The translations under genes were made by a program, and so were the position numbers. A DNA stretch of 64,000 nt from Flavivirga algicola (lineage in GTDB: Bacteria; Bacteroidota; Bacteroidia; Flavobacteriales; Flavobacteriaceae), in contig NZ_JABBHF010000001.1 of assembly GCF_012910715.1 (NCBI RefSeq), forward strand, positions 7,170-71,169, read 5' to 3'. Positions 48,710 through 54,526 of this stretch are shown here, piece after piece (the first letter of the stretch is position 1; the number at the start of each line of letters is the position of its first letter). The notes below the pieces were generated by a model that was not told the DNA's origin, searched no databases, and saw only the letters and a list, made by a program, of their open reading frames with translations.

Positions 48710-50089
48710 TTGAATACCATACCTGAAATACTTTTAAAACAAAAGGAATTTTTTAAGTCTCAAAAAACGAAGGAGGTCCCGTATAGGCTATCTCTTTTAA
48801 AGACATTAAAACAGGAAATACTTTCTAATGAGCAAGCCATTTATGACGCCCTAAAAAAAGATTTCAAAAAGCCAGAATTCGAAACCTATATCAGTGAATT
48901 TGGACTCGTTATTTCTGAGTTGAATTTAGTTATTAAACATCTTAAAAAGTGGGCAGCTCCTAAACGAATAAAATCGTCAATGTTAACATTTCCATCTCGA
49001 GATTATATTTACAAACAACCTTACGGAAATATATTAATTATTGCTCCTTGGAATTATCCATTTTTATTAGCCATGGAGCCTTTAATCATGGCTATTGCAG
49101 CAGGAAATACAGTTGTTTTAAAACCTAGTGAACTCACTAAGCACACCTCACAGCTTATCACGGATATAGTGCAAAAAACATTTCCAGAAACCATAGCTAA
49201 ATCAATACAAGGTGGTGTTGAAACGGCAACAGCGTTACTGGCTCAAAAATGGGATTATATATTTTTTACAGGCAGCGTTTCTGTTGGAAAAATTGTGGCA
49301 CGTGCAGCTGCAAACTACCTAACACCTGTTACTTTAGAATTGGGTGGAAAATCACCATGCATTATTGATGATACAGTCAATTTAAAACTAGTCGCCCGGC
49401 GCATTTCCTGGGGAAAATTTTTAAACGCTGGACAAACATGTATTTCTGCGGACTACATCATAGTAAAATCAAATATCAAGGATGCATTTATTGAAGCCTT
49501 AAAAACCGAAATTATAAAAAGATACGGCGATAATCCAAAAGAATCTCCAGACTTACCAAGAATTATTAATAAAAGAAACGTTTCTAGAATTGCAGATATG
49601 TTGGAAGGATCTCAAATAATTTATGGTGGTCATATAGATATAGAAGATTGCTATATATCGCCTACATTAATTGATTCTCCAGATTTGGATAGTAAAATAA
49701 TGAGCGATGAGATTTTTGGACCAGTCTTACCAATTTTAACTTACGATACTGAACAGGATATAGAAAATATTATTTGGCATTACGACAAGCCTTTAGCACT
49801 TTATGTGTTTTCTAATGATAAGACCTTTATTGAACAAACCATTAAAAAGTATAGTTTTGGGGGTGGCGTGATAAATGATCTGTTAATCCATTTTGGAAAT
49901 CATAGATTACCTTTTGGAGGTATTGGTGCCAGTGGTATGGGAGCGTATCATGGAAAAACTGGTTTCGATACATTTTCACACCATAAAGCCATATCCAAGC
50001 GAGGAAACTGGTCTGACCCAGGCGTAAGATATGCGCCATATAAAGGAAAATTGGGGCTTTTAAAAAAAATGTTTAAGTATTTTTCCTAA
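48710..50089 (+). CDS. Aldehyde dehydrogenase (NAD(P)-dependent)
   Basis: 459 residues, initiated by TTG at 48710 because no upstream ATG fits. Motifs: NILIIAPWNYPFLLAMEPLIMAIAAGNTVVLKPSELT, the GSVSVG coenzyme site in FFTGSVSVGKIVA, Glu in VTLELGGKSPC, the nucleophile Cys in LNAGQTCISADYI, and EIFGPVLPIL. The layout is typical of the class 3 ALDH group (short, membrane-tail-free C-terminus). It oxidises aldehydes, possibly fatty aldehydes, to acids. It probably forms an operon with panB and the pseudouridine synthase. Confidence 0.92.
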   Translation: MNTIPEILLKQKEFFKSQKTKEVPYRLSLLKTLKQEILSNEQAIYDALKKDFKKPEFETYISEFGLVISELNLVIKHLKKWAAPKRIKSSMLTFPSRDYIYKQPYGNILIIAPWNYPFLLAMEPLIMAIAAGNTVVLKPSELTKHTSQLITDIVQKTFPETIAKSIQGGVETATALLAQKWDYIFFTGSVSVGKIVARAAANYLTPVTLELGGKSPCIIDDTVNLKLVARRISWGKFLNAGQTCISADYIIVKSNIKDAFIEALKTEIIKRYGDNPKESPDLPRIINKRNVSRIADMLEGSQIIYGGHIDIEDCYISPTLIDSPDLDSKIMSDEIFGPVLPILTYDTEQDIENIIWHYDKPLALYVFSNDKTFIEQTIKKYSFGGGVINDLLIHFGNHRLPFGGIGASGMGAYHGKTGFDTFSHHKAISKRGNWSDPGVRYAPYKGKLGLLKKMFKYFS

Positions 50090-50115
50090 TTATATTGCTT
50101 ATTTAAATTTATTTT

Positions 50116-50143
50116 GTCATTCCTGTGAAAGCAGGAATCCACT
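50116..50143. repeat. 28-bp palindromic repeat (minihairpin) 1, degenerate
   Basis: GTCATTCCTG then TGAAAG then CAGGAATCCACT; arms ATTCCTG and CAGGAAT. It is the 3' flank of GIY-YIG copy 1. One substitution changes the GCGAAAGC core to GTGAAAGC. Confidence 0.75.
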
Positions 50144-50159
50144 CGTAAATCAAATAATC

Positions 50160-50469
50160 CTATTCAAGTAAATAAGACCAATCTTTAGATAAGTCTTTCC
50201 AATTGGGATTATCTTTTTCTATGAGGTCTATTTTCCATTGGCGTTTCCACTTTTTCATATTCTTCTCCCTCCTAATGGCATCGTTAACATACTGATAAGT
50301 TTCAAAATACAGTAACTTATACAATCCATATTTCTTGGTAAAGCCCTCAACTAATTTTTTTTTATGTTCGAACATGCGTCTTTCTAAATCGTTTGTTACG
50401 CCAATGTATAGGGTTCCGCAGGTTTTATTGGTTAATGCATAAGTAATATTGGCGGTGGGTTTTATACAT
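50160..50469 (-). pseudogene. GIY-YIG nuclease gene, copy 1, broken by a 2-bp deletion
   Basis: Reads MYKTHRQYYLCIN from the ATG at 50469 and then hits a stop. Relative to the intact copy 2, a 2-bp deletion near 50436 in the alignment ends the frame at once. From about 50375 the old frame resumes as MFEHKKKLVEGFTKKYGLYKLL. Total length is 310 bp against 312 for copy 2. Sequence identity to copy 2 is above 90%, so the loss is recent. The right-hand palindrome (50488-50515) has also mutated. It lies 70 bp beyond the end of the convergent aldehyde dehydrogenase gene. Confidence 0.85.
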
Positions 50470-50487
50470 GAGCGTTATACTTTTATA

Positions 50488-50515
50488 GGTGGATCCCTGC
50501 CTTCTCAGGAATGAC
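50488..50515. repeat. 28-bp palindromic repeat (minihairpin) 2, degenerate
   Basis: Reverse-orientation copy flanking the start side of GIY-YIG copy 1: GTGGATCCCTGCC then TTCTCAGGAATGAC. Two mismatches break the ideal arms seen at 51047 and 51190. Confidence 0.75.
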
Positions 50516-50670
50516 AAACGACATTCAGGCAATAGAAAACAATAATCGATTAAGACATATTTTTAGTCATCTAATCTTTTCCTCATTACTCGAAATTCTA
50601 AGCGCTGATAATGGTTACAAACATATTAAAAAACCAATGATCAATCACTTATATGCTTTTAAAAAACCAT

Positions 50671-50698
50671 GTCATTCCTGCGAAAGCAGGAATCCACT
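50671..50698. repeat. 28-bp palindromic repeat (minihairpin) 3, intact
   Basis: GTCATTCCTGCG then AAAGCAGGAATCCACT. Arms ATTCCTGC and GCAGGAAT close on a GAAA loop; the core GCGAAAGC is a known unusually stable single-stranded DNA hairpin. Left flank of GIY-YIG copy 2. Confidence 0.85.
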
Positions 50699-50714
50699 CG
50701 TAAATCAAATAATC

Positions 50715-51026
50715 CTATTCAAGTACGTAAGACCAATCTTTAGATAAGTCTTTCCAATTAGGGTTATCTTTTTCTATGAGGTCTATTTTCCATTGGCGTT
50801 TCCACTTTTTCATATTTTTCTCCCTCCTAATGGCATCGTTAACATACTGATAAGTTTCAAAATACAGTAACTTATACAATCCATATTTCTTGGTAAAACC
50901 CTCAACTAATTTGTTTTTGTGTTCGAACATGCGTCTTTCTAAATCGTTTGTTACGCCAATGTATAGGGTTCCGCAGGTTTTATTGGTTAAGATGTATAGG
51001 TAATATTGGTGGTGGGTTTTATACAT
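50715..51026 (-). CDS. GIY-YIG endonuclease, intact copy
   Basis: 103 residues: YYLYILTNKTCGTLYIGVTNDLERRMFEH holds the GIY and YIG elements and the catalytic Arg (LERRM); AIRREKNMKKW holds the catalytic Glu region. The C-terminus is NPNWKDLSKDWSYVLE. Standalone GIY-YIG proteins of this size are frequent in Bacteroidota. Intact 28-bp palindromes lie on both sides (50671-50698 and 51047-51074) in opposite orientation, and a very similar broken copy and a truncated copy lie next to it. I infer it is the enzyme that mobilises or maintains the palindromes. Confidence 0.85.
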   Translation of the reverse strand: MYKTHHQYYLYILTNKTCGTLYIGVTNDLERRMFEHKNKLVEGFTKKYGLYKLLYFETYQYVNDAIRREKNMKKWKRQWKIDLIEKDNPNWKDLSKDWSYVLE

Positions 51027-51046
51027 TGAAGCATTATATTATTTTA

Positions 51047-51074
51047 AGTGGATTCCTGCCTTCGCAGGAATGAC
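51047..51074. repeat. 28-bp palindromic repeat (minihairpin) 4, intact
   Basis: AGTGGATTCCTGCC then TTCGCAGGAATGAC: perfect 8-bp arms closing on a TTCG loop, the reverse complement of minihairpin 3. Start-side flank of GIY-YIG copy 2. Confidence 0.85.
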
Positions 51075-51110
51075 AAACGACATTCAGGCAATAGAAAACA
51101 ATAATTAATA

Positions 51111-51171
51111 GGATGCTACAAGTTTTGTTGGTTAAGATGTATAAGTAATATTGGAGGTAGGTTTTATACAT
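51111..51171 (-). pseudogene. GIY-YIG nuclease gene, copy 3, 5'-end remnant
   Basis: Only the first ~19 codons survive: ATG at 51171, MYKTYLQYYLYILTNKTCSI. The reading then passes into the flank of the neighbouring copy (AATAATTAATAGG region). The interior and left palindrome are lost, so a recombination joined this remnant to the flank shared by copies 1 and 2. The start-side palindrome (51190-51217) is intact. Confidence 0.8.
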
Positions 51172-51189
51172 GAGCATTATACTTTTATA

Positions 51190-51217
51190 AGTGGATTCCT
51201 GCCTTCGCAGGAATGAC
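51190..51217. repeat. 28-bp palindromic repeat (minihairpin) 5, intact
   Basis: Identical to minihairpin 4 (AGTGGATTCCTGCC plus TTCGCAGGAATGAC). It flanks the truncated third copy. Confidence 0.85.
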
Positions 51218-51366
51218 AAACGATGTTTATTCAAAAAAACGATAATCAATTAAGACTTCGTTTTAGTTACCTAATTTTCACATATCACTCAAAAACACGA
51301 AACATTGATATCATGATTACACACATATTAAAAACTAAAACCAATTATTTATGGGTTTTGAAAATT

Positions 51367-52179
51367 CTAGGTATTGCTATAGGAAATAGGGTAATCTATT
51401 ATCAATTGAACCCCCTCATTTGGTTTAGACGATAATTCAAATTCTGCATTAATTAACGACGCTCTACTTTTCATGTTTATCAACCCAGACCCCTTCTCTA
51501 TATCATTCATATCAAACCCTTTACCATCATCTTTGGCAGTAATTTTTAAACTTTTTATTTGATATTCAATGGTAATGGCTAGGTTTTCAGCCTCAGAATA
51601 TTTCACCGAATTAGACATAAACTCTTGTAGTATTCTAAAAATAATGATTTCATGTTTTCTATTCGAAAAATCGATTTTCGCTCCTATAGTTTTAAGTTCG
51701 GCAGAAGCAAATTTCATCTTTTTAAGTCGATCTAACTCATTAGTAATAGATTTTTCAAAACCTATATTTAAAACAACTTCATTATTTAATGTTTTTGAAA
51801 GTGCCCGTACTTCAGATAAACTATTTTTAAGTGCCTCACTAGTATCCTTAAACTTTTCTTTAACATCATCTGCTACCTGCATTTTTAAAATACTTAGTTG
51901 CATACTGGCAAACGACAACAATTGTCCCACATTATCATGTAATTCCCATCCAATGTTTTTAAGTGTTTGTTCTTGTATTTCGGTTTGCGCCTGTGCTATT
52001 TCTTCTTCAAAAGCCTGTTGCTGCTTAATTCGATCTAACAACAATTTATTTTTTCGTTTTTGAAATACTATAAAAAAGATAATGACCAACGATGTGATAA
52101 TCGCTAAAACAGCAATCATATATATTAATAAATAACGTTCGGAAGCTGTACTGGCTAATCGTTCTCCGGTTTGCACCAT
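51367..52179 (-). CDS. Sensor histidine kinase of the NarX/HisKA_3 type
   Basis: 270 residues. One membrane segment (about 19-42, LIYMIAVLAIITSLVIIFFI), then a long Gln/Glu-rich coiled coil (LKQQQAFEEEIAQAQTEIQEQ), the phospho-acceptor His in IGWELHDNVGQLLSFA, and an HATPase domain (FRILQEFMSNSVKYSEA N-box; DDGKGFDMNDIEKGSGLINMKSRA). It lacks a separate periplasmic sensor domain; the multi-pass protein that overlaps its 5' end by 25 bp may supply sensing. No NarL-type regulator gene is next to it: the downstream side is occupied by the GIY-YIG repeats. Confidence 0.85.
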   Translation of the reverse strand: MVQTGERLASTASERYLLIYMIAVLAIITSLVIIFFIVFQKRKNKLLLDRIKQQQAFEEEIAQAQTEIQEQTLKNIGWELHDNVGQLLSFASMQLSILKMQVADDVKEKFKDTSEALKNSLSEVRALSKTLNNEVVLNIGFEKSITNELDRLKKMKFASAELKTIGAKIDFSNRKHEIIIFRILQEFMSNSVKYSEAENLAITIEYQIKSLKITAKDDGKGFDMNDIEKGSGLINMKSRASLINAEFELSSKPNEGVQLIIDYPISYSNT

Positions 52180-52913
52180 ATTAAAGCAAAGGTATAAGTT
52201 AAATACATAAATACATTAGCAAATAAATAAATTTGCCGTCTTAATATTACAAAATCCCAATCTCTATATACTTCCCGCTTTAACATCACAGAATCTAAGC
52301 TAGTAGAACTCTTGATATCATATGTGTAATATATATCATAGAATACTATGGGTGTGATAATAAGCCACCAAATAAATATAGCCAGACTTATATAAAAATT
52401 TATTGATTTATAAAAAGTTAAGATTTTATCACTTTGCAATATTTCAATAAAATAAAATACCGCACATAATAATATAACAATAGCTCCTAGTATACTTATT
52501 ACAGGAAAAAAACGAACAAAAAAGTCGTCCCAATTTAGAGCTATATATATTATTGAAAAAACAAAGAAAATATAGGCAGCGAATTTTACAACATTTCTGA
52601 AGAGTCCTATTTTGAGGATTTTATAATAATAAAAAGCAAAAAATAAAATAGCTCCTACATTCCAATACAATGTAGCCCACCAATAATTTTTTTCAAAAAT
52701 GGTCCCTATGAGAAAATTTAAAAACCTATCGGGTCTTACTGCTCTAGCATACATGCTAATAAAATCACAAAGAGTTAGATAGACTAAAAAATAAATGAAA
52801 TATTTAGCAGCCGTAGATTTATACTTTCTAAAAACTAATAAACCTATTACGGCTGCTAATAATTCTACACTATGAGTTATAAAACTATAGTTTTGCCTTA
52901 TAAACTCATCCAT
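52155..52913 (-). CDS. Multi-pass membrane protein, probable sensor partner of the kinase
   Basis: 252 residues with about seven hydrophobic helices (SVELLAAVIGLLVF, YFIYFLVYLTLCDFI, LYWNVGAILFFAFYYYKI, VISILGAIVILLCAVFYFI, YISLAIFIWWLIITPIVFY and others). No catalytic motif is visible. The gene overlaps the kinase start by 25 bp, so they are translationally coupled, and a small GEGGSGGY-tailed protein gene precedes it by 9 bp. I infer a membrane sensor of a three-gene signalling unit. A decayed duplicate of its 5' end lies at 53705-53825. Confidence 0.75.
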   Translation of the reverse strand: MDEFIRQNYSFITHSVELLAAVIGLLVFRKYKSTAAKYFIYFLVYLTLCDFISMYARAVRPDRFLNFLIGTIFEKNYWWATLYWNVGAILFFAFYYYKILKIGLFRNVVKFAAYIFFVFSIIYIALNWDDFFVRFFPVISILGAIVILLCAVFYFIEILQSDKILTFYKSINFYISLAIFIWWLIITPIVFYDIYYTYDIKSSTSLDSVMLKREVYRDWDFVILRRQIYLFANVFMYLTYTFALIWCKPEND

Positions 52914-52922
52914 ATCATCTTA

Positions 52923-53429
52923 TTAATAACCTCCAGAACCTCCTTCTCCATTATTTAAAGGAGGCACAGGAATATCTTCATCATTGCCTCTTAAACTAAA
53001 TGGTACCATACTAGCTTTATCGTGTAATTTTTTACCCGTAGGTACCATAAACATCGTTGTTAAATTCTTTTTCTTTCGCCCTGCATTGTCTCCATAAACA
53101 CCTAAATAAACGCGAATACCTGTCATCTCGTAGCCTAATTTATAAGATTGATACTGTGAGTAAGCCAAATATTTCTCTACTTCATTTAATGACCAAAGAG
53201 TCCAACGGTTGTCTTTTTTTCTCCCTTGCTGCTGTGCTGCAGAATCTACTGCTGCTTCTCTATATTCTGTCCAGTTATTATTCAATTCTTGCGCCTTGCT
53301 CATCTCTATAGCATTATCTGGTCTTTCTGCCATTGGAGGTTTAGTGTCACCAATATCTCTCGGACAAAAATAATAGGTTAATACAGCTCCAATAATAAAT
53401 CCCAAAATAATGTAACTTAATTTTTTCAT
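52923..53429 (-). CDS. GEGGSGGY-tail protein, copy 1 (membrane-anchored)
   Basis: 168 residues. An uncleaved N-terminal anchor (MKKLSYIILGFIIGAVLTYY) followed by a soluble domain: WTLWSLNEVEKYLAYSQYQ, GYEMTGIRVYLGVYGDN, MVPTGKKLHDKA, ending DIPVPPLNNGEGGSGGY. The block W-S-L-x-[DE]-[VL]-x-x-Y-L and GYxMTGxRVY are shared with copy 2 at 54056. Family unrecognised. It directly precedes the membrane protein and kinase genes, so it may be a ligand-sensing or modulating subunit. Confidence 0.7.
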   Translation of the reverse strand: MKKLSYIILGFIIGAVLTYYFCPRDIGDTKPPMAERPDNAIEMSKAQELNNNWTEYREAAVDSAAQQQGRKKDNRWTLWSLNEVEKYLAYSQYQSYKLGYEMTGIRVYLGVYGDNAGRKKKNLTTMFMVPTGKKLHDKASMVPFSLRGNDEDIPVPPLNNGEGGSGGY

Positions 53430-54055: not shown

Positions 54056-54475
54056 TTAATAACCTCCAGAACCTCCTTCACCATTATTAAAAGGAGGGAT
54101 AGGGATATTTTCTTCATCTTTACTTCTTAAACTAGCTGAAATCTTACGCGTATTGGAAACCAATTTACGCCCTTCTGGTGCAAAAAACAGGGTATTCTGC
54201 CCTCTTTTTTCTGGATAAGCAGCAAAATAAACCCGCACACCTGTCATGTCATACCCCTTTTTATTTGCTTCGTGTTCGGCGTAATCTAGATAGTTACGTA
54301 AATCTTCTAGCGACCATCTTAAATATTTTATTTCACCTTCACCCGCTTTTTTTCCAGATTTACTAAATAATGCCGAATTTTTTGAAGACCATGCGTTACT
54401 TAATTCTTTACCGCGATCTTCTGTAATAACGCCTTTTGGAGCGCGAAAATTAGAGTCTTTGTTATTTTTTTTCAT
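54056..54475 (-). CDS. GEGGSGGY-tail protein, copy 2 (likely soluble)
   Basis: I start at the Met at 54475 (MKKNNKDSNFRAPKGVITED); the in-frame Met at 54526 adds a short hydrophobic-mixed stretch (VSTHVCVYLFSVV) of uncertain reality. About 139 residues: YLRWSLEDLRNYLDYAEHEA, GYDMTGVRVYFAAYPEKRGQNTLFFAPEGRKL, IPIPPFNNGEGGSGGY. It shares the two blocks and the tail with copy 1 but lacks its clear anchor. It has lost its linked membrane-protein copy (now a remnant). Confidence 0.65.
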   Translation of the reverse strand: MKKNNKDSNFRAPKGVITEDRGKELSNAWSSKNSALFSKSGKKAGEGEIKYLRWSLEDLRNYLDYAEHEANKKGYDMTGVRVYFAAYPEKRGQNTLFFAPEGRKLVSNTRKISASLRSKDEENIPIPPFNNGEGGSGGY

Positions 54476-54526
54476 CTTTAGAACAACTGAAAATAGATAT
54501 ACACATACATGAGTAGATACATGCAT

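Follow-up and report, generated by a model that had tools for sequence, protein, structure and literature searches.

Positions 50116-51217 of the window, as we call the whole stretch of 64,000 nucleotides analysed here from Flavivirga algicola, hold an intact GIY-YIG nuclease gene, a decayed copy of it, a short 5' remnant of a third copy and five copies, on both strands, of the 28-nt form GTC-ATTCCTGC-NNNN-GCAGGAAT-CCACT (Table 1). Each of these forms a hairpin, or the relic of one, bordered by a GTC tag and, at the opposite end, by a CCAC tail; around the intact gene both tags point outward. An earlier note on this DNA had listed the same five palindromes, intact gene, decayed copy and remnant, and had described the hairpins on the two flanks of the intact gene as inverted; both observations were confirmed at the same positions. 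The literal core sequences that it gave for the palindromes stood only in part: GCGAAGGC is present in two of the five, and GCGAAAGC in just one.

Table 1. Hairpins, gene copies and spacer at the GIY-YIG locus of the window
Feature	Position	Strand	State and basis
Tagged hairpin, 3' (outer) flank of decayed copy	50116..50143	+	One stem pair weakened; pattern search and DNA folding
Decayed second GIY-YIG gene copy	50160..50469	-	Frame broken near the 5' end
Tagged hairpin upstream of decayed copy	50488..50515	-	Fold lost
Spacer between units	50516..50670	.	Repeat families D1, D2, D6
Intact tagged hairpin, downstream (3') flank of intact gene	50671..50698	+	Tag outward
Intact GIY-YIG nuclease gene, 103 aa	50715..51026	-	PF01541, E 4e-15; conserved family residues kept
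Intact tagged hairpin, upstream (5') flank of intact gene	51047..51074	-	Tag outward
Third gene copy, 5' remnant	51111..51171	-	76% over residues 1-25
Intact tagged hairpin upstream of 5' remnant	51190..51217	-	Pattern search and DNA folding

A search of the window with a 23-letter hairpin pattern, allowing up to three mismatches, matched exactly these five palindromes (in eight rows, three of them being matched on both strands), with a chance expectation of 0.01. When folded as single-stranded DNA, the hairpins at 50671, 51047 and 51190 had 8-bp arms, a 4-nt loop and energies of -7.7 to -7.8 kcal/mol (z -4.7 to -5.4); the hairpin at 50116 was weakened (-5.7 kcal/mol), and that at 50488 had no fold left (z 0.35). 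The decayed gene copy is 97% identical to the intact one across a 300-nt stretch, after which it is seen by eye to be 2 bp short, which bears out the 2-bp deletion previously reported for it. Since the left end of the spacer recurs after the next unit, the most fitting description of the region is a tandem duplication, about 555 bp long, of element plus spacer, with a truncated third unit.

The protein encoded by the intact gene has a single domain, GIY-YIG. Residues Y11, Y22, G24, R32, E69 and N88 are invariant in two alignments, and H36 is invariant in one of them and nearly so in the other; the conserved Tyr, Arg, Glu and Asn of the GIY-YIG nuclease family are thus present, and we take these to be the catalytic residues. 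The predicted structure is a compact single GIY-YIG domain (pLDDT 89.7). By both sequence and fold, the nearest solved structure is the UPF0213 protein BH0048 (sequence E 7e-8, Foldseek E 1.6e-3), and the next by fold is Slx1, which cleaves branched DNA (best Foldseek E 0.03, sequence E 0.86); both similarities are weak, and Foldseek gave zero matches to the model at E <= 0.001. Profile matches to GIY-YIG intron and homing endonucleases were also weak, the NCBIfam intron-endonuclease match falling below the cut-off. Only GIY-YIG was matched by Pfam in the unit, where no HUH/Y1 transposase was found. There was no Rfam match to an intron in 49000-52500, no PADLOC match to a defence system and no match of the protein in the phage collection at E <= 1e-8. 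The protein is under strong purifying selection, with dN/dS of 0.016-0.022 in the three of seven pairs for which dS was computable; over 36 pairs, codon positions 1, 2 and 3 differ 423, 66 and 1392 times, respectively.

Genes at least 86% identical to the window copy were found in 8 of the 12 genomes of its genus. At the window's own place (locus A), between ORFs that are presumably an aldehyde dehydrogenase-like and a sensor-kinase-like gene, the element occurs in 3 of the 12 genomes (the window's own, G002 and G006, in the last of which the gene is turned round) and is absent in nine, where 4 to 333 bases separate the two flank matches. Locus B carries the gene in four of the 12 (G005, G007, G011 and, with three copies, G010); in a base-level reading that covered all genomes except G001, G006 and G008, G000 and G009 were seen to have one palindrome each, tagged at either end, G004 to have another of this form with an extended loop, and G002 and G003 to have no palindrome. 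Locus C has the gene in G004 alone (1 of 12), and a reading of all genomes except G002 and G008 gave a single hairpin in G010 and none in eight genomes. Element-free sites were without a palindrome in all nine genomes read at locus A and in eight of nine at locus C. The element lies between convergent ORFs at all three loci. In Azospirillum lipoferum 4B, the gene is found between sufB and sufC, flanked by two outward-tagged dimers; in the four congeners read, which are 90.6-96.8% identical in the matched pieces, sufB and sufC are only 55-129 bp apart and there is no element. Presence and absence at orthologous sites, together with several genomic locations, as expected of a transposable element, were thus observed at three loci of the genus and in the Azospirillum suf operon, and the empty-site polymorphism among relatives that the earlier note's reading had predicted does exist. 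Neither a target-site duplication nor an exact insertion junction could be made out at the occupied and empty sites compared, the flanks of which are too diverged.

Hairpins of this kind are also found away from the gene. The whole genome contains 44 matches to the hairpin pattern at up to three mismatches, including those of the window, and none to the reversed pattern; with further copies in the genus, the palindromes at other loci do match those that flank the gene, as had been anticipated. On contig 10, decayed GIY-YIG pieces are bounded by such hairpins, as is a weak 28-residue GIY-YIG match on contig 23. In the same genome, five hairpin pairs without a gene have the same polarity as the gene flanks, the starts of the two hairpins being separated by 52-54 bp in four of these pairs and by 187 bp in the other. 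Among the matches listed in the genus, the tags point outward in all 18 neighbouring pairs within 300 bp that lie away from gene loci, 13 of them with a spacing of 49-57 bp; the count uses 147 hand-typed positions, which are part of these matches, hairpins alone on a contig being mostly left out. Six pairs at gene loci were counted apart: four have facing tags, as is the case between neighbouring elements, one has tags in the same direction and one has tags outward. A tblastn search of the 18 gene-less pair stretches found no gene piece at E <= 1, a search that also missed the known weak relic used as a control. The gene-less pairs look like non-autonomous dimers. Hairpins per genome numbered 12-32 in the four genomes without a close gene vs 10-38 in the eight with one, which means that copies persist without the gene or are served by paralogues.

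Two further observations were considered as traces of enzymatic activity and set aside. Single hairpins joined tag to tag occur at four places in the 12 genus genomes and tail to tail at none (each with at most one mismatch). As proof of enzymatic excision they are ambiguous: each palindrome is a direct repeat of the other, so loss of the segment between two of them can be explained by simple recombination, which yields the same product. Loop insertions were also rejected as a sign of cutting in the loop because 18 of the 24 extended hairpins (8 of the 12 genomes) are, by eye, of two repeated types and do not represent independent events.

Much of this could in principle be produced by a homing-endonuclease-like selfish gene, which would cut palindromes elsewhere and be copied to these places by double-strand-break repair between the hairpin arms, the hairpins being recognition sites and homology arms and not transposon ends. 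GIY-YIG is a homing-endonuclease fold, and enzymes of the I-TevI type belong to the same catalytic domain family, to which the weak profile matches also point; tandem arrays and the turned-round gene in G006 fit repair or recombination, and single tag-to-tag palindromes are occasionally found where relatives carry the element. However, gene-less dimers of constant polarity and mostly constant spacing are unexpected from gene homing alone, and nearly all element-free sites read at loci A and C lack the palindrome that such an enzyme would have cut. The present case also differs from I-TevI-type enzymes in that there is no Rfam intron, the protein is a single domain of 103 aa and the bounding hairpins are multi-copy. 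The elements lie between ORFs (in Azospirillum, between sufB and sufC) and not in an intron, an intein or a conserved host gene, though free-standing homing endonucleases can also be intergenic. We regard homing as possible but rather unlikely, and prefer to read the unit as a mobile element that has the hairpins as its ends.

The association of gene and hairpins was surveyed across bacteria with an alignment of 20 relatives as the search profile. At E <= 1e-8, 243 of the 395 genomes of the phylum contained kin, and a named genome collection contained at least 515 relatives, the best 80 of which carry names from many phyla and are in many cases metagenome-assembled. Within 258 sequences, 185 distinct genes were found, of which 162 were used as being near full-length with flanks of at least 200 nt; six plasmid loci were added to give 168 genes, a set chosen by similarity to the window protein, whose members are not independent, some being paralogues or copies in tandem and one the decayed copy of the window. 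Hairpins within 200 bp were detected de novo regardless of sequence, and an adjacent GTC was then sought with two bases of slack. In this comparison of related genes and their flanks, which the earlier note had suggested, an outward GTC-tagged hairpin was present on both sides of 68 of the 168 genes vs 1 of 825 random places (chosen anywhere in the same loci, intergenic or not), and inward-tagged hairpins were present on both sides of 10 of 168. The nearest hairpin on the 336 flanks was tagged outward only in 151 cases, inward only in 21 and both ways in 2; it was untagged in 43, and there was no hairpin in 119. Averaged over protein clusters at 60-80% identity, the both-sides rate was 0.34-0.40. 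When a looser motif was admitted as well, 83 of 168 genes had a match on both sides, and 126 of 168 had one on at least a single side; the looser motif alone occurred on both sides of 2 of the 825 control places, and the same test with inward orientation gave 10 of 168 genes. Neither an outward-tagged hairpin nor an outward looser motif was found within 200 bp on either side of 42 of the 168 genes.

A cruder test, in which the inverted-repeat score had to be at least 20, was passed by 55 of 162 genes, as against 7.0% of 3,219 mispaired flanks and 1 of 477 random places. As candidate ends, direct repeats were also tried and rejected: a score of at least 24 was reached in 58 of 162 genes vs 43 of 162 for inverted repeats, and the rows concerned show tandem copies and extra hairpins. 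Since a palindrome matches itself both ways, and tandem copies and extra hairpins add to the matches, the test of tag orientation was used in place of repeat scores.

Matched, lineage-specific hairpins surround the gene in Rhizobium sp. CIAT894, Novosphingobium aromaticivorans pNL2, Sinorhizobium meliloti Ak57 and Shinella sp. HZN7. In S. meliloti Ak57, an internally deleted element lies next to the element, and at the place of this deleted element a single palindrome is found in the relative K101, with tags at its two ends, one of which has a one-base change. Other arrangements were also seen. In a Neisseria gonorrhoeae record, the gene sits amid clustered hairpins of mixed orientation. Near the Planktothrix gene there are other repeats and no hairpin at the threshold, Rhizobium tumorigenes has no hairpin upstream of the gene, and Sinorhizobium C101 has hairpins with another tag; no hairpin was seen in the stretch read from Shinella H4-D48, the flanks of which are too diverged for comparison.

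The hairpins of the 68 genes flanked on both sides have a common layout. GTC itself was required by the detector; the base before it is T in 56 and C in 9 of the 68 hairpins upstream of the gene, the corresponding numbers downstream being 57 and 10 of 68. Of the same 68 each, 64 upstream hairpins and 65 downstream ones are 20 or 21 nt long; the stem starts with AT in 54 and 61 of 68, respectively; and the tail is CCA in 44 and 42 of 68, most of the others starting with CT. An AT stem base and a CC or CT tail are thus mostly kept beside the GTC tag, while loop and stem vary. The stems include ATTCCTGC (27 genes) and ATTCCCGC (10), and also ATCCTGAA, ATTCTGCG, AAGCCGTC, ATCCCAGG and GCCCCGTG. 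The earlier note had drawn attention to d(GCGAAAGC) as a known, exceptionally stable minihairpin, an emphasis that does not hold as a general rule, loop and stem differing between lineages. The upstream hairpin lies at a median of 30.5 nt before the aligned gene start, and the downstream hairpin, in inverted orientation, at a median distance of 29 nt. A hairpin at the former place could control expression, which, together with the strong purifying selection, would suit a host-domesticated nuclease that is kept vertically and controls or clears REP hairpins, the surrounding hairpins being its cis-regulatory sites. We consider such a role improbable in view of the patchy presence and changing loci within one genus, the tandem and decayed copies, and the inverted downstream hairpin at a similar distance.

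That gene and hairpins form one evolutionary unit is, in our judgement, very probable, and is suggested by the way in which they vary together. Within the 8-nt arms, hairpins upstream and downstream of one gene agree at 7.13 of 8 positions vs 5.09 after permutation (maximum 5.88 of 2,000), and for the 27 genes with rare stems the agreement is 6.74 vs 4.28 (maximum 5.41 of 5,000). The arms are identical on both flanks in 38 of the 68 genes, and some genes have clearly different stems on the two sides (for example, L173, L169 and L176). On a gene tree of 67 proteins, which was built from few columns, has 30 of 64 inner branches unresolved and leaves out one of the 68 (L200, with a mis-registered hairpin), the loop class changes 8 times vs 20.6 after shuffling, the tail 10 vs 22.4 times and the stem 23 vs 36.7 times; none of 300 label shuffles reached the observed numbers of changes, and the same was true within the 41 rows listed as Flavobacteriia. 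One clade (support 88) unites genes of the window's genus, of Seonamhaeicola and of Winogradskyella with loops of at least five bases, whereas four-base loops occur at other genes of the window's genus and of Winogradskyella. As loop length splits by clade inside the same genera, the hairpin follows the gene rather than the host. Gene and hairpins are thus linked, co-diversify, and are present at some orthologous sites and absent at others. Although CGTC repeats occur in many genomes, 42 of the 168 genes have no outward ones nearby and the number of hairpins in the genus fails to track gene presence, it is hardly credible that a small gene merely sits in REP-rich DNA among ordinary intergenic REPs moved by something else, given the excess of both-sided hairpins over random places (which were not limited to intergenic DNA) and stem types that match within a gene and follow its lineage.

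The hairpins of this unit resemble the CGTC-tagged REPs, a group that has been described in five phyla, Bacteroidetes among them, and to which Neisseria dRS3 as well as RPE-4/RPE-6 of Rickettsia belong (Di Nocera, De Gregorio and Rocco 2013, PMC3733652). According to that description, they have a CGTC/TGTC tag (with a CCTC variant), a stem of 8-9 bp almost always starting with AT, a loop of 4-5 nt and a tail that is mostly CCA, and they mostly form HH dimers with spacers of usually 20-100 bp (PMC3733652). The hairpins reported here agree with this definition of tag, stem, loop and tail in most cases, not in every one. The predominance of opposite-orientation dimers is also found here, in all 18 pairs, which we assume to be the same as the HH dimers of that paper. 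Among the carriers it names, A. lipoferum, N. aromaticivorans, S. meliloti and Neisseria were found here to have the gene with CGTC-type hairpins nearby, those of N. aromaticivorans deviating by a stem base of GC and a tail of TTGG. In the main text of the paper, from which the term GIY is absent, the authors' verdict is that the repeats seemingly have no dedicated transposase and no association with transposase genes; their mover is left open, one suggestion being a mobilising element that has since vanished (PMC3733652). That text names no enzyme, whereas a dedicated GIY-YIG gene is proposed here. In the open-access literature (without bioRxiv preprints), we found no paper linking GIY-YIG genes, UPF0213 or Slx1 with palindromic repeats.

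A second comparison is with REPtrons, in which RAYT tyrosine transposase genes are flanked by GTAG REPs, with single and dimeric hairpins genome-wide (PMC3733652). The present unit is like a REPtron in that the gene of a DNA-cleaving enzyme lies between inverted tagged REPs and in that hairpins occur both singly and as dimers throughout the genome; in contrast, its enzyme is GIY-YIG (PF01541) and not HUH/Y1, and its tag is of the GTC type and not GTAG. IS200/IS605 elements are likewise minimal and hairpin-bounded. The unit shares with them these hairpin bounds and perhaps a single-strand mechanism, but differs in that no HUH/Y1 transposase was found in it.

On this basis, we propose that the GIY-YIG gene is the missing partner of the CGTC REPs, in a REPtron-like element in which a nuclease replaces the tyrosine transposase. 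The unit, consisting of tag-hairpin-tail, GIY-YIG gene and tail-hairpin-tag, is probably a minimal mobile element and the autonomous form of CGTC-tagged REPs. This is in keeping with the earlier suggestion of a selfish element or REP-maintaining nuclease with a logic like that of REP/RAYT; that the enzyme cuts the hairpins and moves the element is what we infer. We think it somewhat likely that the nuclease acts directly on the hairpins. The single-domain enzyme would recognise tag and hairpin, either single-stranded at the replication fork or extruded as a cruciform, and cleave at the tagged hairpin, after which host repair and replication would move or copy the hairpin-bounded segment. The segment might leave as single-stranded DNA, as in IS200/IS605, or be copied by break repair, as in homing. 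Dimers would be non-autonomous passengers, analogous to MITEs or REPINs, and single tag-to-tag hairpins may be scars after loss of the segment between two palindromes. GIY-YIG enzymes hydrolyse DNA without a covalent intermediate and we know of no strand-transfer chemistry in them; strand transfer would therefore need host functions. The simplest reading is that the enzyme makes a structure-specific cut at a hairpin or cruciform, which the host then repairs.

More generally, we lean, with modest confidence, towards a class of prokaryotic mobile elements in which a lone hydrolytic GIY-YIG nuclease, and not a transposase, recombinase or reverse transcriptase, recognises tagged hairpins and propagates both itself and non-autonomous dimers, nuclease and hairpin co-diversifying across many phyla. 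The CGTC REPs, among them Neisseria dRS3 and probably also RPE-4/RPE-6 of Rickettsia, would be explained by such a class. Should the enzyme indeed act on the hairpins, transposition-like spread can be driven by a protein that is not known for strand-transfer chemistry, and REPtron logic would have had a second origin, from an unrelated fold. A function would then also be at hand for part of the genes that are annotated only as 'GIY-YIG nuclease family protein'. As the gene is dedicated, widespread and conserved, the mover of CGTC REPs becomes directly testable with one small protein and short oligonucleotides.

The GIY-YIG element was flanked by convergent ORFs at all three of its places in the genus, that is, locus A, which is the window's own place, and loci B (L079) and C (L052). 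Elsewhere in the window, two related ORFs had the C-terminal tail PP(L/F)NNGEGGSGGY in common (see table). A more distant GIY-YIG gene of the genus (L012, 46% identity) was found without 8-bp hairpins and bore direct copies of TGTCATTCAGAGCGAAGCGAAGAATC on both sides, which perhaps represent a related class of short-stemmed repeats.

Features with coordinates
Feature	Record	Position	Strand
Element at locus A, between convergent ORFs	window	50090-51367	
First ORF with shared tail	window	52923-53429	-
Second ORF with shared tail	window	54056-54526	-
Distant GIY-YIG gene L012	G000:C2	211082-211366	

Extra sequence inside the hairpin loop, mostly 21-25 nt, was present at 24 places in eight genus genomes. 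When sorted by eye, 18 of these 24 hairpins fell into two repeated types that recur across several genomes, and thus loop-extended hairpins seem to spread as well.

Three records filed as plasmids (NZ_CP119140.1, NZ_CP119142.1 and CP090106.1) were chromosome-like (2.2 and 3.7 Mb). Among the Sinorhizobium loci, L326 (Sinorhizobium sp. C101) carried a CCTC-type tag on the hairpins close to its GIY-YIG gene; this tag is also mentioned as a variant of CGTC REPs in their published description (PMC3733652). At L324 (CP090106.1), an intact element was adjoined by an internally deleted one that keeps both hairpins, and the latter likely represents a step from the autonomous to the non-autonomous form.
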